DNA from: Nitrospinae bacterium bin107
GTDB taxonomy: Bacteria > UBA8248
Assembly: GCA_002238965.1 (NCBI GenBank)
Contig: MPNJ01000022.1
Span: 1 to 64,000, forward strand
Reading direction: 5' to 3'
Length of the DNA: 64,000 bases
The notes below the pieces were generated by a model that was given only the letters and a program-made list of their open reading frames with translations, had not been told where the DNA came from and made no database searches. A program made the translations under genes and the position numbers. Position 1 is the stretch's first letter. Every line of letters starts with the position of its first letter. Below are positions 6,522 through 15,350 of this stretch, one piece after another.

Positions 6522-6899
6522 CTAATACCCCTCGTCGATCACCTCTTTGAGCTGCGTGCACCCCGCCACGAGCGCCGTCATCCCGCAGGGGGGCAGCATG
6601 CACTCGAGGGCCTCGGTCGCCTCCTCGACGGTCGCGCCGAGTTGCAGCGCTTTCTTCAAGTGGTTCTTGATGCCCTCGGTATCAGAGGGGTTGCGCGAGG
6701 CGCTCGCCACCGCGATGAAGAGCTCCTTGTATTTCTCATGAAAGGGGCCCTGTTTCTTCATGATGTGGTTTTTGAGGTTCTCGTAGTTCTCCAGAAGCTC
6801 GGGGTCCACCTCGCACAGGAGTTCATACGCCGGGTAGATAAACCCGCGCGCCGCCTTCATCTCCTCGTACAAGGCCCTGCCCCGCTCGCTCATCGCCAT
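6522..6899 (-). CDS. carboxymuconolactone decarboxylase-like (AhpD fold) protein
   Basis: The 125-residue product is a single-domain member of the carboxymuconolactone decarboxylase/AhpD superfamily by its helical pattern (GPFHEKYKELFIAVASASRN, IKNHLKKALQLGATVEEATEALE). It has no CxxC motif; the two cysteines near the C-terminus (PPCG and AGC) are 9 residues apart, so AhpD-type thiol peroxidase chemistry is not expected from motif. The start at 6899 follows GGGAGGAATCAGG. It is the last gene of a minus-strand cluster that also holds a second AhpD-like protein, and it ends at a strong terminator. Substrate unknown. Confidence 0.75.
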   Translation of the reverse strand: MAMSERGRALYEEMKAARGFIYPAYELLCEVDPELLENYENLKNHIMKKQGPFHEKYKELFIAVASASRNPSDTEGIKNHLKKALQLGATVEEATEALECMLPPCGMTALVAGCTQLKEVIDEGY

Positions 6900-6953
6900 C
6901 CTGATTCCTCCCTTTGCAAACACTCGGCTCTTGGCGCCGAGCGTTATACGCTC

Positions 6954-7724
6954 TTACGGGTAGACTTCCTTCTCCAGCACCGAGATTTCATGACCGGGCA
7001 GGATGTATTCCTCCTTCGTGGCGCGCTCGATGCACTTATGGATGGAATCCATCGCGTCGCGCATGTTCGACATCTGGCCGGCGGGAACGCGGCGCTCGAG
7101 GCCTTCGTTGATCTGGATGACGTCGGCGGCGATGACGTAGGTGCCCACGCGCGTCTCGACGGCGACCGAGCAGTGCCCCGGCGTGTGGCCCGGCGTGTGG
7201 AAGTAGGTGACGCCCGGCACGATCTCGGTATTGTCCTTCCAGATCGGCTCGAAGATGATGCCCTGCTGCGCGATCACCGGCCAGCGGGTGTTGGGGTGGA
7301 TCGGCGCGTCGTAGGGTTTCGCCTGCAGCGCGACCGGGCACATGGAGTATTGAAGCTCCTCCGCCCACACGTATTTAACCGCGTTGGTGAACAGGTCGCA
7401 GTTCTGGGAGTGATCCCAGTGGAGGTGCGTGAGGATGAGGATGTCCACATCCTCGGGCTTCCAGCCCGCGCCTTCGAGCTGCTCGCGCACGCCCTGGCCG
7501 GGTTCCCGGCTCGCGGGCCAGGGGGCGCCGCCGCGCTCGGGGTCCAGGAAACTGGTGTCGACCACGACCTTCACGTCCTTGCCGTCGTGGTCCTTCGCCC
7601 CCTCGATCATGTAGATGAACGAGGGAATCTCCAGTTTCGTCCCGAAGTTCGTCCAATACACCATATTGGAGTAATCCGTGTGAATGGTGCCGCAGTTCAG
7701 CGGACGGATGGTGAGCTCTGACAT
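6954..7724 (-). CDS. metallo-beta-lactamase-fold hydrolase (AHL-lactonase-like)
   Basis: The 256-residue protein shows the complete metallo-beta-lactamase metal set: HLHWDH at 100-105, His180 in TPGHTPGH, Asp201 in AADVI and His245 in LPGHE. Overall length and the LTHLHWDHSQN context match the AiiA-like N-acyl homoserine lactonase group, a family that opens lactones or cleaves other esters. It lies between the selenoprotein-like AhpD gene and the CMD-like gene in the same direction, with gaps of 54 and 122 bases. No signal peptide, so cytoplasmic. Quorum quenching should not be assumed; the operon of flavoenzymes suggests a lactone or thioester intermediate. Confidence 0.85.
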   Translation of the reverse strand: MSELTIRPLNCGTIHTDYSNMVYWTNFGTKLEIPSFIYMIEGAKDHDGKDVKVVVDTSFLDPERGGAPWPASREPGQGVREQLEGAGWKPEDVDILILTHLHWDHSQNCDLFTNAVKYVWAEELQYSMCPVALQAKPYDAPIHPNTRWPVIAQQGIIFEPIWKDNTEIVPGVTYFHTPGHTPGHCSVAVETRVGTYVIAADVIQINEGLERRVPAGQMSNMRDAMDSIHKCIERATKEEYILPGHEISVLEKEVYP

Positions 7725-7846: not shown

Positions 7847-8446
7847 TTAAGCCCGAGCGGTTCGGGAGAAGCGCACCACCTCCATCAACTCGTCCGGGCC
7901 TTCGGGTTCGACGGCATCGAGGCCGAGCGCCAGGTTCAGCCGGTTGCTCATGTTCCGGTACGAGACGGAACCGATGATGTCCAGCACGTTCTCATCACTG
8001 AAGCCCCCCTCGCGCAGCGCGTCCAGGTCCGCCTCGCTCATCGCGTAGTGGTCGAACGTGAGTTTTTCGGCGAAGGCGAGCATCGCCTTGTCCGCATCGT
8101 CGAGAACCGGGGAATTGTCCCTGTCCGTCACCACGGTGGCCACGTCGGCCAGCGTTACGTCGTCGCCGCTTTCAGCACGGAAAGCCTGGCCATGGTTCAT
8201 CGTTCAGCCATAGCACCCGCCGATGGTGGCCACGTAGTAGGAGATCAGTTCCTCGCGCCTCCCGCCCAGCGTCGAATTCCCGCCGTGGACGGCCATGTTC
8301 ATCGTCTGGCGTCCGTTCAGGACCTGGGGCCTGCGCGCCATCGTGAGCAGCAGCTTGGGCACGGCGCCCCGTTTCGCCCGGATGCCCTCGAGTATGCCGC
8401 GCGCGGGCTCCTGGGCGTCATTCAGCCTTAATGGGGATATCCACAT
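7847..8446 (-). CDS. AhpD-like peroxidase-related selenoprotein with in-frame UGA (Sec81)
   Basis: Read through one UGA (bases 8206-8204) this is a 199-residue protein of the peroxidase-related AhpD group. The N-terminal part runs MWISPLRLNDAQEPARG to IGGCYG, the C-terminal part TMNHGQAFRAE to NRLNLALGLDAVEP; both are in one frame and join as one family member. The UGA falls at the second Cys of the AhpD CxxC...H redox motif: Cys78-Tyr79-Gly80-UGA81-Thr-Met-Asn-His85. A SECIS-like hairpin follows at the right distance. Selenocysteine would make it a CxxU thiol peroxidase or reductase. Start ATG 8446 follows GGAG, 24 bases after the flavoenzyme stop codon. Read as two ORFs, the downstream one would start at ATG 8200 and the product would lack the redox motif. 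A disabling nonsense mutation is less likely because both halves are well kept. Confidence 0.85.
8165..8190 (-). promoter_or_regulatory. bacterial SECIS-like hairpin after the UGA codon
   Basis: On the minus strand, 14-39 bases after the UGA, the RNA can fold as GCC, two bulged bases AG, GCUUUC, loop CGUGCU, GAAAGC, GGC. That gives a 6-bp upper stem, a 3-bp lower stem and a 5'-side bulge, with G as the second loop base. A bacterial SECIS needs a stem-loop starting within roughly 16-37 bases of the UGA with a G in the first two loop positions; this one meets that rule, and the bulge recalls that of E. coli fdhF. It lies inside the coding frame, as in other bacteria. Confidence 0.75.
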
Positions 8447-8470
8447 TCTCCGTTCTCCTCGAAACCGATG

Positions 8471-9526
8471 TTATTCGCTTGAACTCGCCGCGCGCTCTTC
8501 GGCGAACGCGGGCATCACCTCTTTCGCAAACCGCTCTATCGACTGAATCGCCTCGTCCTGGGCGATGCCGCGCAGCACGAAGATCATGATGTGATTCACC
8601 TGGAACTCCGTCTGGAGGCGCTTGAGATCGGCGATCACCTTCTCCGGCGGGCCGATGACGCCGCCCCCCTCGATGACCTGGCGGATGTCGACGTCGTAGC
8701 TCCAGTTGCGCTTGAGGGCTTCTTTCTCCTCGAGCGGCATCTCGATGGAATTCACCGCGCTGCGGTAGGAGAGATACCACGATTCCGAGGGTTCGATCTG
8801 CCGCCAGGCATGCTCGGGGTCGTCGCACACGTGGACGTGGTGCGCCATGAGGGCGGGATAAACACTCGGGTCGCCGCCCCGGTTGCGCACGGTTTCGTTG
8901 AACAACTCCATCTTCTCCAGATACACCTCAGGCCCCTTGAAGGTGCCCGACGCCATGATGTTGTACCCCCTCTGGCCGGCGAAGACGTAGGTTTCGGGAC
9001 TCGTGCCGGCCAGCCAGATGGGAGGACGCGGCTTCTGGATGGGTTTCGGGAAAATCTCCGCGTCGATGCAGCTGTAATGCTTCCCGTGGAAGGTGAGGCA
9101 TTCCCCCTCCAGCAGGCGGGTCAAGACCTCGAGGCCCTCCTGCATCTTCTCTCTGCTCTCGGAGGGGGAGATGTTGAAGCCCTGGAATTCCTTGGGCTGG
9201 GAGCCCCTGCCGACGCCCAGTTCCAGACGTCCCCCGCTCAGCACGTCGACCAGGGCGGCCTGTTCGGCCAGGCGCACCGGATTGTGGAACGGCATGATGC
9301 AGATGGCGGTGCCGATTCTGATCTTTTTGGTTCTCTGCGCGATGGCGAGCGCGACCATCAGGGCGTCGGGGCACATGCCCACGCGGGAGAAGTGGTGCTC
9401 GGCCAGGAACACGGCTTCATAGCCGAGCTCGTCGGCCACCTCGCATTGTTCGATCAACTGGTCGAACTCGTGCTTGTAGCTTTCGCCCTCCTGACAGGCA
9501 GGAATGTAGAAAAGCGAGAATTTCAT
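8471..9526 (-). CDS. LLM-class flavin-dependent oxidoreductase (copy 1)
   Basis: The 351-residue protein is a bacterial-luciferase-like (LLM) TIM-barrel flavoenzyme: AEHHFSRVGMCPDAL, RIGTAICIMPFHNPVRLAEQAA, SGGRLELGVGRGSQPKEFQGF and PPIWLAGTSPETY are the standard blocks. Such enzymes use reduced FMN or F420 to oxygenate or reduce substrates such as alkanesulfonates or aldehydes. It is closely similar to the copy at 11050-12120 (same motif strings throughout) and differs from the smaller LLM at 10021. It lies 24 bases upstream of the AhpD-like selenoprotein gene and probably shares its mRNA. Cofactor and substrate cannot be read from sequence. Confidence 0.88.
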   Translation of the reverse strand: MKFSLFYIPACQEGESYKHEFDQLIEQCEVADELGYEAVFLAEHHFSRVGMCPDALMVALAIAQRTKKIRIGTAICIMPFHNPVRLAEQAALVDVLSGGRLELGVGRGSQPKEFQGFNISPSESREKMQEGLEVLTRLLEGECLTFHGKHYSCIDAEIFPKPIQKPRPPIWLAGTSPETYVFAGQRGYNIMASGTFKGPEVYLEKMELFNETVRNRGGDPSVYPALMAHHVHVCDDPEHAWRQIEPSESWYLSYRSAVNSIEMPLEEKEALKRNWSYDVDIRQVIEGGGVIGPPEKVIADLKRLQTEFQVNHIMIFVLRGIAQDEAIQSIERFAKEVMPAFAEERAASSSE

Positions 9527-9573: not shown

Positions 9574-9972
9574 TTACGCACCCATCGTGAACACCTTGTC
9601 CGCCCGGATGCGGTAGATGACGCGCACCTGTCCCGCCTGGCGGTTCGGATAGCTGTCCACGCCCAGATACTTGTTCGCCAGGGCGTCGATATGCTCTTCC
9701 GCCCCGTTTTCGGTAATCTCCACCACCGTGCCCTGAATCCCCACCCACCTGTAGGCGTTTTCGGGGTCGACGATGGCGATGGAAACCTTGGACCTCGCGC
9801 GCATGTTGAGGTCCTTCAGTCGGCCTTTGGCCGAATTCACCTCGATGATGTCGCCGTTGGTGCCGAACCATACGGGAGAGACCTGGGGAGATCCGTCCTT
9901 GTTCTGGGTGCCCAGGTACAGGAGGGCCTTTGTGTCGAGAATGCCGGCATGAGAATCGGGTATCAGCGCCAT
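9574..9972 (-). CDS. PPOX-class split-barrel flavin/F420-binding protein
   Basis: The 132-residue protein matches the pyridoxamine 5'-phosphate oxidase-like split barrel: LYLGTQNKDGSPQVSPVWF, GRLKDLNMRARSKVSIAIVDPENAYRWVGIQGTVVEI. Members bind FMN, F420 or haem and act as dimers. Its position between two LLM flavoenzymes suggests flavin or F420 reduction or a related redox step for them, but this is an inference from neighbourhood. Gaps of about 47 bases on both sides fit one operon. Confidence 0.82.
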   Translation of the reverse strand: MALIPDSHAGILDTKALLYLGTQNKDGSPQVSPVWFGTNGDIIEVNSAKGRLKDLNMRARSKVSIAIVDPENAYRWVGIQGTVVEITENGAEEHIDALANKYLGVDSYPNRQAGQVRVIYRIRADKVFTMGA

Positions 9973-10020: not shown

Positions 10021-11001
10021 TCATACGCACCTGGGCAAAACCTCTTCGGTGAACATTTTGAGAGATTCGTCGAAATCCTGGTTCGGGGGGTCGATCATGA
10101 TGCTCTTGACGCCGTAGGACTCGATCTCCTGGATGCGGTCGACGCATTCCCCGGGCGTTCCCGTGATGGTGAAGCGGTCCAGGATGTAGTCGGTAATGAG
10201 CGGCACGTGCTTGGGATCCCGCCAGTTGCTCACGTCGAAGTTGTCCAGAAGGTGTTTGATTTCGGGCTTGTACGGGTCGGGCACCGAGTCGAGCGTCATG
10301 CGGAAGTTGTGGTGCGCCCGGTTCGCCACCCGCGCCCGCACCTTCTCGCGAGCGCGCACGCTGTCGGTATCCACCGAGACGACCGCGCCGAATATGATGT
10401 CCATCTCGCCCAGAGAGGAGTCGCGGTTCGCCATCCCCTCGTTCAGGTACTTCATCACCCAGTCCACCGTCTCCTGGTAGACGCCCGAACCCACGATGAC
10501 GCCGTCCGCGACCTCGGCCGACATGGAGAGCGTCCGGGGACCCTCGGCGGAGGTGTAGATGGGGATATCCCGCTCACACCACATGTTCACGTGCACGCCC
10601 TCGGCGTATTCCACCGTCTCGCCGCGCGTGAACGCGCGAACCGCCGCTATGGATTCGCGCATCCGCGCGAGCCGGGCCATCTTCTTGCCCAGCGTATAGA
10701 CGGGCGTATCGCCCGAGCCGATGCCGAACAGCACCCGGCCGCCCGATAGTTCATCGAGCGTGGCGATGGCGCTCGCTGCGACGCTGTCGTCGTGCAGGAC
10801 CGGGTTCGTCACGCCGGGGCCGATTTTCACATGCGAGGTATTCTCGATCGCCAGGGCGAGCGCGATGTTGTGATCCCGGCAGGTGAGGTGGCTCTCCGCT
10901 ATCCACACCTGCTCGAAACCGTTGTCCTCGGCGTATTTCGAGCGCTCCGCCACGACCCGGATGTCATCCGGCACCAGATGCAAACTAAAGCTCATACCCA
11001 C
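10021..11001 (-). CDS. LLM-class flavin-dependent oxidoreductase, F420-type (copy 2)
   Basis: The 326-residue LLM protein has the layout of methylenetetrahydromethanopterin-reductase-like, F420-using members: GFEQVWIAESHLTCRDHNIALALAI, VKIGPGVTNPVLHDD, LDELSGGRVLFGIGSGDTP, and a C-terminal TGTPGECVDRIQEIESYGV block. It is clearly distinct from copies 1 and 3 at 8471 and 11050. It sits between copy 3 and the PPOX gene in one minus-strand run. Whether this organism makes F420 is not shown by the window, so FMN use remains possible. Confidence 0.85.
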   Translation of the reverse strand: MGMSFSLHLVPDDIRVVAERSKYAEDNGFEQVWIAESHLTCRDHNIALALAIENTSHVKIGPGVTNPVLHDDSVAASAIATLDELSGGRVLFGIGSGDTPVYTLGKKMARLARMRESIAAVRAFTRGETVEYAEGVHVNMWCERDIPIYTSAEGPRTLSMSAEVADGVIVGSGVYQETVDWVMKYLNEGMANRDSSLGEMDIIFGAVVSVDTDSVRAREKVRARVANRAHHNFRMTLDSVPDPYKPEIKHLLDNFDVSNWRDPKHVPLITDYILDRFTITGTPGECVDRIQEIESYGVKSIMIDPPNQDFDESLKMFTEEVLPRCV

Positions 11002-11049: not shown

Positions 11050-12120
11050 TCAAGGCTGACTGCCACCTGTGCCGACGGGCGCGGTGGCGTTCACCAGCGG
11101 CATGACGTCACTGGCGAAGCTCTCTATCGAGCGCATCACCGCGGCGTGGTCCGGCCCGCGCCAGGGCGCCAGGATAACGTGATTGACCCCGTAATCATCG
11201 CGCAGCCTGCAGATATCCTCCGCCACGGCCCCCGGATCGGCAATGATGCCGCCGCCCCTGACAATCTCGGCGACGTCCAGCTCATAACTCCAGTTGCGCT
11301 TCAGGTGCTTCGCCTCATCCTCGGGCATTTCCACCTCGTTCATCTTCGCCCGGTAGCGCAGGTACTCGCCCTCGCCCTCCACCGTGAGGTCGAAGCATTC
11401 CTTCGCATCCGCCGCATCGCAGACGTGGATGTGGTGAACCAGGGGTCTGTCGATTCCGGCGGGGTCGCCGCCCGATTTCCTGATGGCGTCCTCGTAAAGC
11501 CCGAACTTTTGCTTATAAACCTCAGGCCCCGTGAAGCCGGCCGAGGCCATCACCTTGAAGCCGTTCTCGCCCGCATAAGTGTAGGTTTCGGGGCTCGTTC
11601 CCGCCAGCCAGATGGGCGGGCGCGGCCTTTGGAGGGGCTTGGGGAAGATTTCCACGTCCGCGCACTGGTGATGCCGGCCCTCGAACGTCACCTTCTGCCC
11701 TTCGAGAAGGCGGGAGAGAATGTGGAGACCTTCTTTTAAGCGCTCGCGGCTTTCCGACGGCTTCGCGCCGAAACCCTGGAACTCCTTGGGCTGGGAGCCG
11801 CGCCCGATGCCCAGCTCCAGCCTGCCGCCGCTCAGGAGATCTACCATGGCGGCCTGCTCGGCCAGCCTTATGGGATCGTGAAACGACATGATGGAAATGG
11901 CCGTGCCCACGTGGATTTTTTTCGTCTTTTGCGCCACCGCGGCGCAGATGAGGAGGGGGTCGGGGATCATCCCGACGCGTGAGAAGTGATGCTCGGCGTA
12001 CCAGACGCACGAGTAACCCAACTCGTCCGCCAGAATGCTCTCTTCGAGCATATCCTCATGGACCTGCGCCTCGGTCATATCTTCGGGACGATACAGGATA
12101 TAAAATAAGGAAAAATCCAT
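11050..12120 (-). CDS. LLM-class flavin-dependent oxidoreductase (copy 3)
   Basis: This 356-residue LLM protein is a paralogue of copy 1: AEHHFSRVGM, LAEQAAMVDLLSGGRLELG, GRGSQPKEFQGF and RPPIWLAGTSPETY are shared almost word for word. It is the first gene of the minus-strand cluster that ends at 6522. The ATG at 12120 is preceded by a weak ribosome-binding site (GAGGGTTTTTTGA region). A small serine/glycine-rich C-terminal tail (NATAPVGTGGSQP) has no obvious function. Role as for copy 1; the two may act on different substrates of one pathway. Confidence 0.87.
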   Translation of the reverse strand: MDFSLFYILYRPEDMTEAQVHEDMLEESILADELGYSCVWYAEHHFSRVGMIPDPLLICAAVAQKTKKIHVGTAISIMSFHDPIRLAEQAAMVDLLSGGRLELGIGRGSQPKEFQGFGAKPSESRERLKEGLHILSRLLEGQKVTFEGRHHQCADVEIFPKPLQRPRPPIWLAGTSPETYTYAGENGFKVMASAGFTGPEVYKQKFGLYEDAIRKSGGDPAGIDRPLVHHIHVCDAADAKECFDLTVEGEGEYLRYRAKMNEVEMPEDEAKHLKRNWSYELDVAEIVRGGGIIADPGAVAEDICRLRDDYGVNHVILAPWRGPDHAAVMRSIESFASDVMPLVNATAPVGTGGSQP

Positions 12121-12384
12121 TCAAAAAACCCTCAAATCCGGCGCGCCGAAGCCGTGGTTGACGGCTCCATTCAAAAGTCGAAGGGGCATTCGACACATGC
12201 TGATGAAACGAGCCTATGAGATTTCCCGTACTCAAGGTTGGCGGTTATAATGCCGATATAATCGCAGCGGCGTCAAGGTTCAGCGCCATGTTTGCGGATT
12301 TCTCGCGATGAGCCGTTCACGTCTTCGAGTGTCGCTTTCAGCCTCATCTCGCCTGGCGTAAAAACTTCTTTTCTCGGGGTTATT

Positions 12385-13143
12385 TTGAGTCCTCTGGTCT
12401 ATATTCTGGTTTTTTGCGCCGCATTCGTCGGCTCGGGCCTCAAGGCGGTGGGCGGATTCGGCTTCGCCACCCTCACGACGCCCACCGTGGCCATTTTCTG
12501 GGACGTGCCGACGGCCATCGCCGTCATCTCCATCCCCACCCTGTGCACGAGCCTCATGAACGCCTGGCGAACGCGCGCGGCCGTCCACGAGGGCTTGCGG
12601 CCCTTCGTTCCCTTCTTTTCGATGAGTCTGGTGGGCCTTGCCGTCGGGCTGACGATTCTCCTGAATACCGATCCACGCCTGATGAAATTCATCCTGGGCG
12701 CTTTTTTGATCTGCCAGATCGTCTGGCAATGGCGGCAGACCGAAAAACCGGCGCCCGAGGAATCTCTCAAGCGTTCGCTTGGCATGGGCGCGGTCGCAGG
12801 CCTCATGCTAGGGACCATCAACATCCCCTCCCACGTCATCGCCTCCTACTTAACGGGGATGAAAATCTCGAAAGAGCGCTATCTCTTCGTGCTGAGCGCG
12901 AGCCAGGTGGTGCTCCGGGTCGCGGCCATCGCCTCCATCGCGGCGGCGGGCTACATCGGCGAAACGGCCCTGTGGCTCATCCTCGTGCTGACGACGCCCG
13001 TGCTGCTCGGATTCTTTGTGGGCACGAAGATATACAACATTTTTACGGATCAGCTGTTCTTCCGTATCGTCACGATCATTCTGTTCGTCATGGGCGCTCT
13101 TCTCGTGGTGATGAATTTTGAGGGCATCTATGCTTTTTTCTGA
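12385..13143 (+). CDS. TauE/SafE-family membrane exporter
   Basis: The 252-residue protein is hydrophobic throughout, with about eight membrane segments, and the family-typical duplicated GxxxKxxGGFGFATLTTP and SLGMGAVAGLMLGTINIPSHVIASY segments. TauE/SafE proteins export sulfite or sulfoacetate or carry other organic anions across the inner membrane. TTG 12385 is chosen because the first membrane helix begins right after it; a longer TTG start at 12292 would add 31 polar residues. It lies just before a TauB/SsuB-like ABC ATPase and after three LLM flavoenzymes, so a link with sulfonate use is possible. Confidence 0.78.
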   Translation: MSPLVYILVFCAAFVGSGLKAVGGFGFATLTTPTVAIFWDVPTAIAVISIPTLCTSLMNAWRTRAAVHEGLRPFVPFFSMSLVGLAVGLTILLNTDPRLMKFILGAFLICQIVWQWRQTEKPAPEESLKRSLGMGAVAGLMLGTINIPSHVIASYLTGMKISKERYLFVLSASQVVLRVAAIASIAAAGYIGETALWLILVLTTPVLLGFFVGTKIYNIFTDQLFFRIVTIILFVMGALLVVMNFEGIYAFF

Positions 13144-13275
13144 TTTCCGCGAATCGAATTGCGGAGCCTGACGGAATTGACGGGTGCGGATCATCTGCGT
13201 TATTTTTCGGGGTCATAGCGAAAAACAAAAAGACGAAATCACGTTCTATCAGATATCTCATAAGGACCGAATAAC

Positions 13276-14028
<753 letters not shown>

Positions 14029-14055
14029 CGCCACTCCCCACCGGAATTACAAAAA

Positions 14056-14085
14056 AAGGCCGGCCCCCGCGAGGGAGCCGGCCTT
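14056..14085. terminator. bidirectional terminator between ABC ATPase and permease genes
   Basis: AAGGCCGGC and GCCGGCCTT make a 9-bp stem with a 12-base loop. An A-run precedes it and TATCTTTT follows it, so it can stop transcripts from both the plus-strand ATPase gene and the minus-strand permease gene. Confidence 0.85.
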
Positions 14086-14110
14086 ATCTTTTGCCTTTGG
14101 GTTTTATCGG

Positions 14111-14977
14111 TTACTGGCGCTGTCCGCCGACCTCTTCCATCATGCCCCACTTGACGACGGTCACTTTTTCAAATTTCTCGAAGATGAACTTCTCCATCAC
14201 GAAGCCGACCAGGGCGATGGCCGCGATTCCCACCAGCATGAATGCGGTGTCCAGGTCTTCGCGGCTGTCGAAGATGGCGTAGCCCAAACCCCAGTCGCTC
14301 GCGGCCACCATCTCGCCTGCGATGCCGGCGCGCCATGCGCGCGCGAGGCCGATGCGGATGCCCGAGAGGATGAAGGGCAGCGAACCGGGGAAAATGACCT
14401 TCCAGAACAGGGTCATCCCCTCGGCGTTCATCGACTGCGCCGCCCGTATCCAGATGGGATTGATGGTCTTCACCCCCGTCCAGGTGGAGGATATGGCCGG
14501 AAGCGCCGCGGCGAACGCGGTGATGAATATCATGGTCGTGTTGCCGAGGCCGAACCACAAGACGAGAATCGGGCTCCAGGCCAGTGCCGGAATGGGCAGG
14601 AGCATGCTCAGGATGGGGATCATGAACTTCTCGAACCAGCCGATGCGGCCCATCGCGATGCCGATGGCTATCCCCACGAAGCCGGCGATGAGCATTCCTA
14701 TCATGATCCGCCAGGCGGTGTGGTAGGAGTGCACGCACAAGACGCACGTGGTCTCACCGGACTTCAGGAAGGTGACCTCGTAGAAGCGGTGGACAATGGG
14801 AAATACGCGCGGGAACAGAGCGGGTTCATTCACGTACCAGGCGATGCACTCCCATATGACGAGCACCGCGATGAAGCTCGGGACGTTGTCCTTGAGCCAC
14901 ATCCAGACTCTTTCCTGCTTGGTGTATTCGTCAGGTAGTTTTACTTCATCCCTTCTGACTTCACTCGCCGTCGCCAT
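14111..14977 (-). CDS. ABC transporter permease (SsuC/TauC/NrtB-like)
   Basis: The 288-residue inner-membrane permease has about six helices and the binding-protein-dependent permease EAA-type loop (WIRAAQSMNAEGMTLFWKVIFPGSLPFILSGIRIGLARAW). This is the family of nitrate, sulfonate and taurine importers. The start at 14977 follows GGGAGG at good distance; an upstream ATG frame would lack it. It faces the ABC ATPase gene at 13276 convergently. The two presumably form one transporter, but the periplasmic substrate-binding protein is not in the neighbourhood. Confidence 0.85.
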   Translation of the reverse strand: MATASEVRRDEVKLPDEYTKQERVWMWLKDNVPSFIAVLVIWECIAWYVNEPALFPRVFPIVHRFYEVTFLKSGETTCVLCVHSYHTAWRIMIGMLIAGFVGIAIGIAMGRIGWFEKFMIPILSMLLPIPALAWSPILVLWFGLGNTTMIFITAFAAALPAISSTWTGVKTINPIWIRAAQSMNAEGMTLFWKVIFPGSLPFILSGIRIGLARAWRAGIAGEMVAASDWGLGYAIFDSREDLDTAFMLVGIAAIALVGFVMEKFIFEKFEKVTVVKWGMMEEVGGQRQ

Positions 14978-15350
14978 CAACAGCCTCCCAAATGATACGA
15001 ATTTCAAAATAATTCATATACAATGAGTCCATAGCCGAAGCCATGGGATTATCCCGTCTGTTCTGTGTGGTTCATTGCGGCTCAGGTCCGAATTTCGGGC
15101 ATTCTTGCAAAAATAGGATATCAAGTCAAAATCTTCGGGCAAAATTTACGAGTTTTCCGTGTTGCGGAATCAGGCGCGCGAAAACCGCCTTATCCCCGCA
15201 ATTTCTGACACTCCCCCCCTCACCGGGGATTGACGCGATCGGTTTTCTTGCACTTTAGTCAATCTCCGCTTTATGGGGGCTGCGGAAAAACCCCTCAGAA
15301 GAAGCGCTACATTTCACTCCCACCGACCTCCCTCGTCGGAAGCAACCCCT
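14978..15350. repeat. intergenic region with a repeat relic (copy D, 15273-15310)
   Basis: No gene is seen. The part next to the permease is AT-rich and should hold its promoter. At 15273-15310 the string GGGGGCTGCGGAAAAACCCC followed by TCAGAAGAAGCGC resembles 20606-20640 (ATTGTTGAAAAAACCC then ACAGAAGAAACGCGC), so it looks like an eroded end of the same TTGTTGA-type repeat family. The remainder holds nothing I can name. Confidence 0.5.

Follow-up and report, generated by a model that had tools for sequence, protein, structure and literature searches.

Two adjacent open reading frames (ORFs) on the minus strand of a 64,000-nucleotide stretch of Nitrospinae bacterium bin107 (contig MPNJ01000022.1; "the window" is this whole stretch) almost certainly form one gene for an AhpD-like (TIGR01926) selenoprotein, in which the UGA at codon 81 would be decoded as selenocysteine (Sec) by way of SelB, Sec-tRNA(UCA), and a hairpin 3' of the codon. 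A sequence-only reading had claimed that the ORFs, 8446-8204 and 8200-7847, are a single frame for one 199-residue protein, that the UGA occupies the second Cys of CxxCxxxH (Cys78, UGA81, His85), and that family similarity holds up to the break in both halves. It had also called for an alignment with AhpD-like proteins, for homologues with UGA at the same place, and for selA, selB, selC, and selD in the same genome, and had named a sequencing error at 8204-8206 as an outcome that would overturn it. When the frame was re-read, both ORFs were in a common frame with TGA-ACG in between, and the TGA at 8206-8204 was the sole internal stop of the 199-codon frame 8446-7847 (minus strand). Translation of the TGA as Sec gave the active-site stretch RREELISYYVATIGGC78YGU81TMNH85G, which confirmed the proposed placement in the motif C78-Y-G-U81-T-M-N-H85. 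The ATG at 8200, listed as the start of the second ORF, is an artefact of the ORF list because it falls at codon 83 of the full frame, where a 75%-identical orthologue (G009) has CTT. Automated annotation would label this gene, and likewise about a dozen sister genes, as broken or split, and a portion of the redox enzymes of the lineage would thereby be hidden.

Table 1. Positions in the window of the selenoprotein gene, its elements, and its same-strand neighbours
Feature	Positions	Strand	Remarks
AhpD-like (TIGR01926 peroxidase-related) gene, probable selenoprotein	7847..8446	-	199 aa; stop TAA
In-frame UGA, codon 81, probably read as selenocysteine	8204..8206	-	Second Cys of CxxC
Cys78 codon	8213..8215	-	First Cys of the motif
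His85 codon	8192..8194	-	His of CxxUxxxH
Glu66 codon	8249..8251	-	12 residues ahead of Cys78; M. tuberculosis AhpD has this spacing for Glu118/Cys130 (PMC3141380)
Predicted SECIS hairpin, GCUUUC-CGUGCU-GAAAGC	8168..8185	-	nt 22-39 (U of UGA = nt 1); from comparison of relatives
Probable ribosome binding site, GAGGAG	8455..8460	-	Shine-Dalgarno-like, 9-14 bases ahead of ATG; from sequence
Luciferase-like monooxygenase (PF00296)	11050..12120	-	
Luciferase-like F420-type oxidoreductase (PF00296)	10021..11001	-	
PNPOx-like flavin/F420-type protein (PF01243)	9574..9972	-	
Luciferase-like monooxygenase (PF00296)	8471..9526	-	Immediately upstream of the selenoprotein gene
Metallo-beta-lactamase-fold hydrolase, lactonase-like (PF00753)	6954..7724	-	Downstream
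Second CMD-family protein (PF02627)	6522..6923	-	CxxC-less; end of the conserved block

The fused protein scored 106.9 bits against NCBIfam TIGR01926 (peroxid_rel; cut-off, 81.8), and the match ran over residues 2-177 without a gap at the UGA. Its Pfam CMD score of 20.5 was slightly under the gathering score of 23. Two NCBIfam families of the same superfamily that are (seleno)proteins by name did not take it in as a member; the scores were far under both cut-offs, at 23.9 bits for NF041238 (AhpD_rel_CFYUT; cut-off, 175) and 43.2 bits for NF053654 (YciW-related (seleno)protein; cut-off, 310). Relatives in the PDB by sequence were 6k40, 3c1l, 2pfx, 2prr, and 2oyo. The peroxidase-related AhpD-like structures 6k40, 3c1l, 2pfx, and 2prr have the fold, the CxxCxxxH motif, and the conserved Glu in common with the window protein at about 25-33% identity, but carry a Cys in place of the window gene's UGA; Cys was aligned to residue 81 in the three for which alignments were shown (6k40, 3c1l, and 2pfx).

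An AlphaFold model built from 16 family members was all-helical with a mean pLDDT of 92.3, and Foldseek matched it to 2prr, 3c1l, and 6k40 at TM scores of 0.73 to 0.77. In the model, helix H79-93, which comes next after the Glu-bearing helix (H61-76), has the Cys/Sec pair at its start. The protein has the AhpD-type helical fold and CxxCxxxH with a Glu 12 residues earlier, with the predicted Sec replacing the second Cys. A proton-relay site has been described as Glu118, Cys130, Cys133, and His137 in Mycobacterium tuberculosis AhpD and as Glu36, Cys48, Cys51, and His55 in Pseudomonas aeruginosa PA0269 (PMC3141380). The Glu-x11-Cys-x2-Cys-x3-His spacing of these two proteins matches the Glu-x11-Cys-x2-U-x3-His of the window protein, whose Gly80 falls at the position of His132 (M. 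tuberculosis AhpD) or Tyr50 (PA0269) in the relay. However, the chain topology of M. tuberculosis AhpD is unlike that of the window protein, and in both reference proteins the second Cys stands where the window protein would have Sec. The peroxidase activity of PA0269, a member of the same fold family, is weak (PMC3141380).

The gene lies in a same-strand series in the order luciferase-like monooxygenase (LLM), F420-type LLM, PNPOx-like protein, LLM, selenoprotein, metallo-beta-lactamase (MBL)-fold hydrolase, and CMD protein. This block was syntenic in four further genomes of the same genus, and also in G009 minus the first two LLM genes. The MBL-fold hydrolase is flanked by two AhpD/CMD proteins, namely the selenoprotein and the CxxC-less CMD protein. 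Upstream and divergent are a TauE-type permease and an ABC transporter ATPase; these permease and transporter genes, at 12292-15007 of the window, adjoin the three luciferase-like oxidoreductases, and the combination suggests an organosulfur-oxidation locus. The operon context suggests that flavin/F420 enzymes oxidise an organic, possibly organosulfur, substrate and that the AhpD protein handles a peroxide or a reactive product.

We infer the translation step from the three elements that were found, namely the Sec machinery genes, the UGA codon, and the hairpin: SelB with Sec-tRNA(UCA) would be brought in by the hairpin, approximately 20 nt downstream of the UGA, and Sec81 would be inserted. 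By homology, the active site would comprise Glu66, Cys78, and His85, with Sec81 standing in for the second catalytic Cys. Sec81 would probably reduce a peroxide or similar electrophile and become a selenenic acid, which Cys78 could resolve as a selenenyl-sulfide; a cellular dithiol might then reduce the selenenyl-sulfide. It is conceivable that the selenoprotein removes a hydroperoxide of the operon's three luciferase-like flavin/F420 oxidoreductases or acts on their product. Alternatively, the protein could be a selenoprotein that performs reductive dehalogenation or another thiol transfer instead of peroxide removal, as does the AhpD-fold debrominase Bmp8. Structures of Bmp8 (6ohi and 6ohj) were among the fold matches, at a TM score of about 0.71, and the relatives of the window gene are marine or sponge metagenome-assembled genomes (MAGs), from settings in which brominated metabolites are common. 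However, identity to Bmp8 was 17%, the protein was nearer to the peroxidase-related group (23-33%), and no halogenase or dehalogenation gene was recognised in the operon. We consider such a dehalogenase or other thiol-transfer function unlikely.

Whatever the substrate, a single-base change of a Cys codon from TGT or TGC to TGA, by mutation in a pseudogene or by misreading, would look alike, and the DNA comes from a MAG-like draft genome (4.37 Mb in 60 contigs, 95.9% complete). The TGA was, however, present at codon 81 in six of six orthologues, five from the same genus (95-97% identity) and one from another genus of the family (G009, 75% identity), so that it occurs in seven independently assembled genomes. 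The public records of the orthologues are MAGs from several projects, mostly labelled Nitrospinota, and a shared assembly error is therefore not plausible; nor can chance explain the TGA, which recurs in six orthologues that were assembled independently. Against the same-genus orthologues, the window gene gave pairwise omega values of 0.03-0.08 upstream of the UGA and 0.07-0.18 downstream. Both gene halves are, judging from these substitution rates, under purifying selection, which is strong after the TGA, and Sec machinery is present. A pseudogene or error was thus refuted by the conserved TGA and the low omega downstream, and we regard it as highly improbable; the sequencing error that the sequence-only reading had named was ruled out, as relatives keep the TGA.

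Equally hard to credit is the possibility of two separate proteins, the 5' ORF ending at the UGA and the 3' ORF beginning at the ATG at 8200. An ATG two codons past the UGA occurs in 6 of 7 orthologues, but G009 has CTT there and its next in-frame start is codon 99; moreover, the active site would be divided over two polypeptides, whereas the homologues are single proteins.

The homologues also bear on how the UGA is read. Of 386 genomes from across the domain, 56 matched the family profile. The motif was read in 31 homologues that lie outside the family, and the residue-81 position was Cys or TGA in every one. Homologues with UGA at the same place were, therefore, found as the earlier reading had hoped, and no sense codon other than that for Cys was seen among these 31. 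One of them (L101) has an SxxC motif without the first Cys.

The Sec machinery on which the earlier reading had made its case depend, selA, selB, selD, and tRNA-Sec(UCA), was all present in the same genome. One tRNA-Sec was over the cut-off (75.9 bits, contig 32), with the anticodon TCA confirmed by ARAGORN. The selA (576 bits) and selB (386 bits) genes are near each other on contig 14, and selD scored 334 bits (contig 32, 206681-207643). The selD gene has its own in-frame TGA (motif GGUGSK; L019, 1528-1530) and is, hence, itself a selenoprotein gene. Readthrough of the UGA by other means, either Trp suppression or a changed code, has virtually nothing in its favour, given that tRNA-Sec(UCA) and selA/B/D are present, that the site is Cys and not Trp in homologues, and that TGA is the normal stop of about half of the window's long ORFs (approximately 26 of 47, in a mechanical ORF set that includes some spurious frames); with TGA serving as a usual stop in the rest of the window, the code is not reassigned.

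A candidate SECIS element was sought 3' of the UGA. Codons 80-104 had zero synonymous variation among six same-genus sequences; 0 of 21 degenerate codons varied synonymously in codons 82-103, compared to 58 of 188 overall, and a permutation test of the 18 codons after the UGA gave P of approximately 0.001. A scoring scan of Sec genes and Cys homologues first singled out the hairpin; in that scan, the mean score was 14.6 in 41 Sec genes compared to 7.1 in 16 Cys homologues (Mann-Whitney p = 3e-8, a value that is too strong for rows that are related). The stem was then examined in six sequences that share a register chosen after inspection, namely the window gene, the G009 orthologue, and four distant CxxUxxxH selenoproteins. 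Across these, 97.2% of cells were paired (one cell was unpaired in G009), and 5 of the 6 pairs had changes on both sides. None of 500 shuffles reached the covariation score, and slid controls paired at 33-47%. Comparison thus placed a stem-loop with G in the apical loop 3' of the UGA. Single-sequence folding gave no SECIS signal; the folding energy of the 64-nt stretch was no better than that of shuffles (z = -0.11), and z was mostly near 0 for 42-nt folds. The evidence for the predicted hairpin as a SECIS element is good but falls short of formal proof, as the register was chosen after inspection and folding energy by itself gave no significant signal.

Two other structures were dropped. The minimum-energy structure of approximately 64 nt, whose outer stem is GGCCAG/CUGGCC, is lost in the G009 orthologue, and the hairpin CAUGG-(9)-CCGUG at nt 13-31, drawn by analogy with the UxxU group described below, had a G009 loop without G.

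The protein kind is already known. AhpD-like CxxU selenoproteins have appeared in catalogues from 2005 onwards, with 27 sequences from the Sargasso Sea (PMC1088965) and 299 and 70 sequences from the GOS data (PMC2398784), and TIGR01926 CxxU appears in the table of a 2026 survey (PMC13188914); the statement in the earlier reading that the family-level idea was known agrees with these sources. The window gene adds a further member. It shares with the known TIGR01926/COG2128 proteins the family (over cut-off), the CxxU motif, and the predicted Sec at the second Cys, and differs from them, though not in kind, in its own subgroup motif, CYGUxxNH, its luciferase-like-monooxygenase operon, and its Nitrospinota MAG lineage. 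It offers a well-supported case of predicted Sec in the active site of an AhpD-like protein, and both Sec-type and Cys-type variants exist in nature for comparison.

Less ordinary than the window gene itself is the expansion of AhpD/CMD selenogenes in this lineage, together with a UxxU paralogue. The window's own genome was searched by family profile and the stretches around matches were read, so that gene counts are lower bounds. At least 13 AhpD/CMD-superfamily genes had an in-frame TGA at a catalytic Cys: the window gene, one UxxU gene, and eleven paralogues with one TGA (L053-L055, L058-L062, L127, L131, and L132, on contigs 8, 14, 15, 24, 29, 32, 35, and 45), whose motifs included CAYUYAH, CEIUTNH, CDYULGH, and CKYUTAH. 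Two CxxC forms were found; one of these few Cys copies, at 91833-92330 of contig C4 (L056), has the motif CHFCTNMH.

The UxxU paralogue (L043; C14:289588-290151, minus strand) has TGA at both Cys positions (UYGUAMNH), shares 45% identity with the window protein, and scored 88.5 bits against TIGR01926 when read with Cys, over the cut-off. The form occurred in 11 genomes of two genera, the window's own and 10 further (L032-L036 and L038-L042). The least synonymously variable stretch of the gene is on the motif, and 3' of the second UGA is a hairpin, CACGGG-CAGUUGU-UCCGUG; the first UGA lies nine bases ahead of the second. A homologue search beyond the family found no further UxxU; the forms met in other lineages were Sec and Cys. 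In the 2026 table, UxxU is given for Prx-like, NF041115, and FmdB proteins (PMC13188914), which likewise have two Sec per redox motif but belong to other protein families; in a search that covered open-licence papers, UxxU for AhpD-like proteins was not in that table. Taken together, these data indicate that the lineage probably uses AhpD/CMD proteins as a selenium redox platform, with one clade having a double-Sec site that could cycle via a diselenide. With the UxxU sister, the effect of a second Sec on a CxxC-type site could be studied in a natural protein, as could the decoding of two UGAs nine bases apart.

Five of the single-TGA paralogues (L053, L054, and L059-L061) have in common a GGUC apical loop at approximately nt 25-28 after the UGA, on stems that vary. 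They form a second SECIS class, unlike the window gene with its CGUGCU loop, and their loop resembles that of Escherichia coli fdhF.
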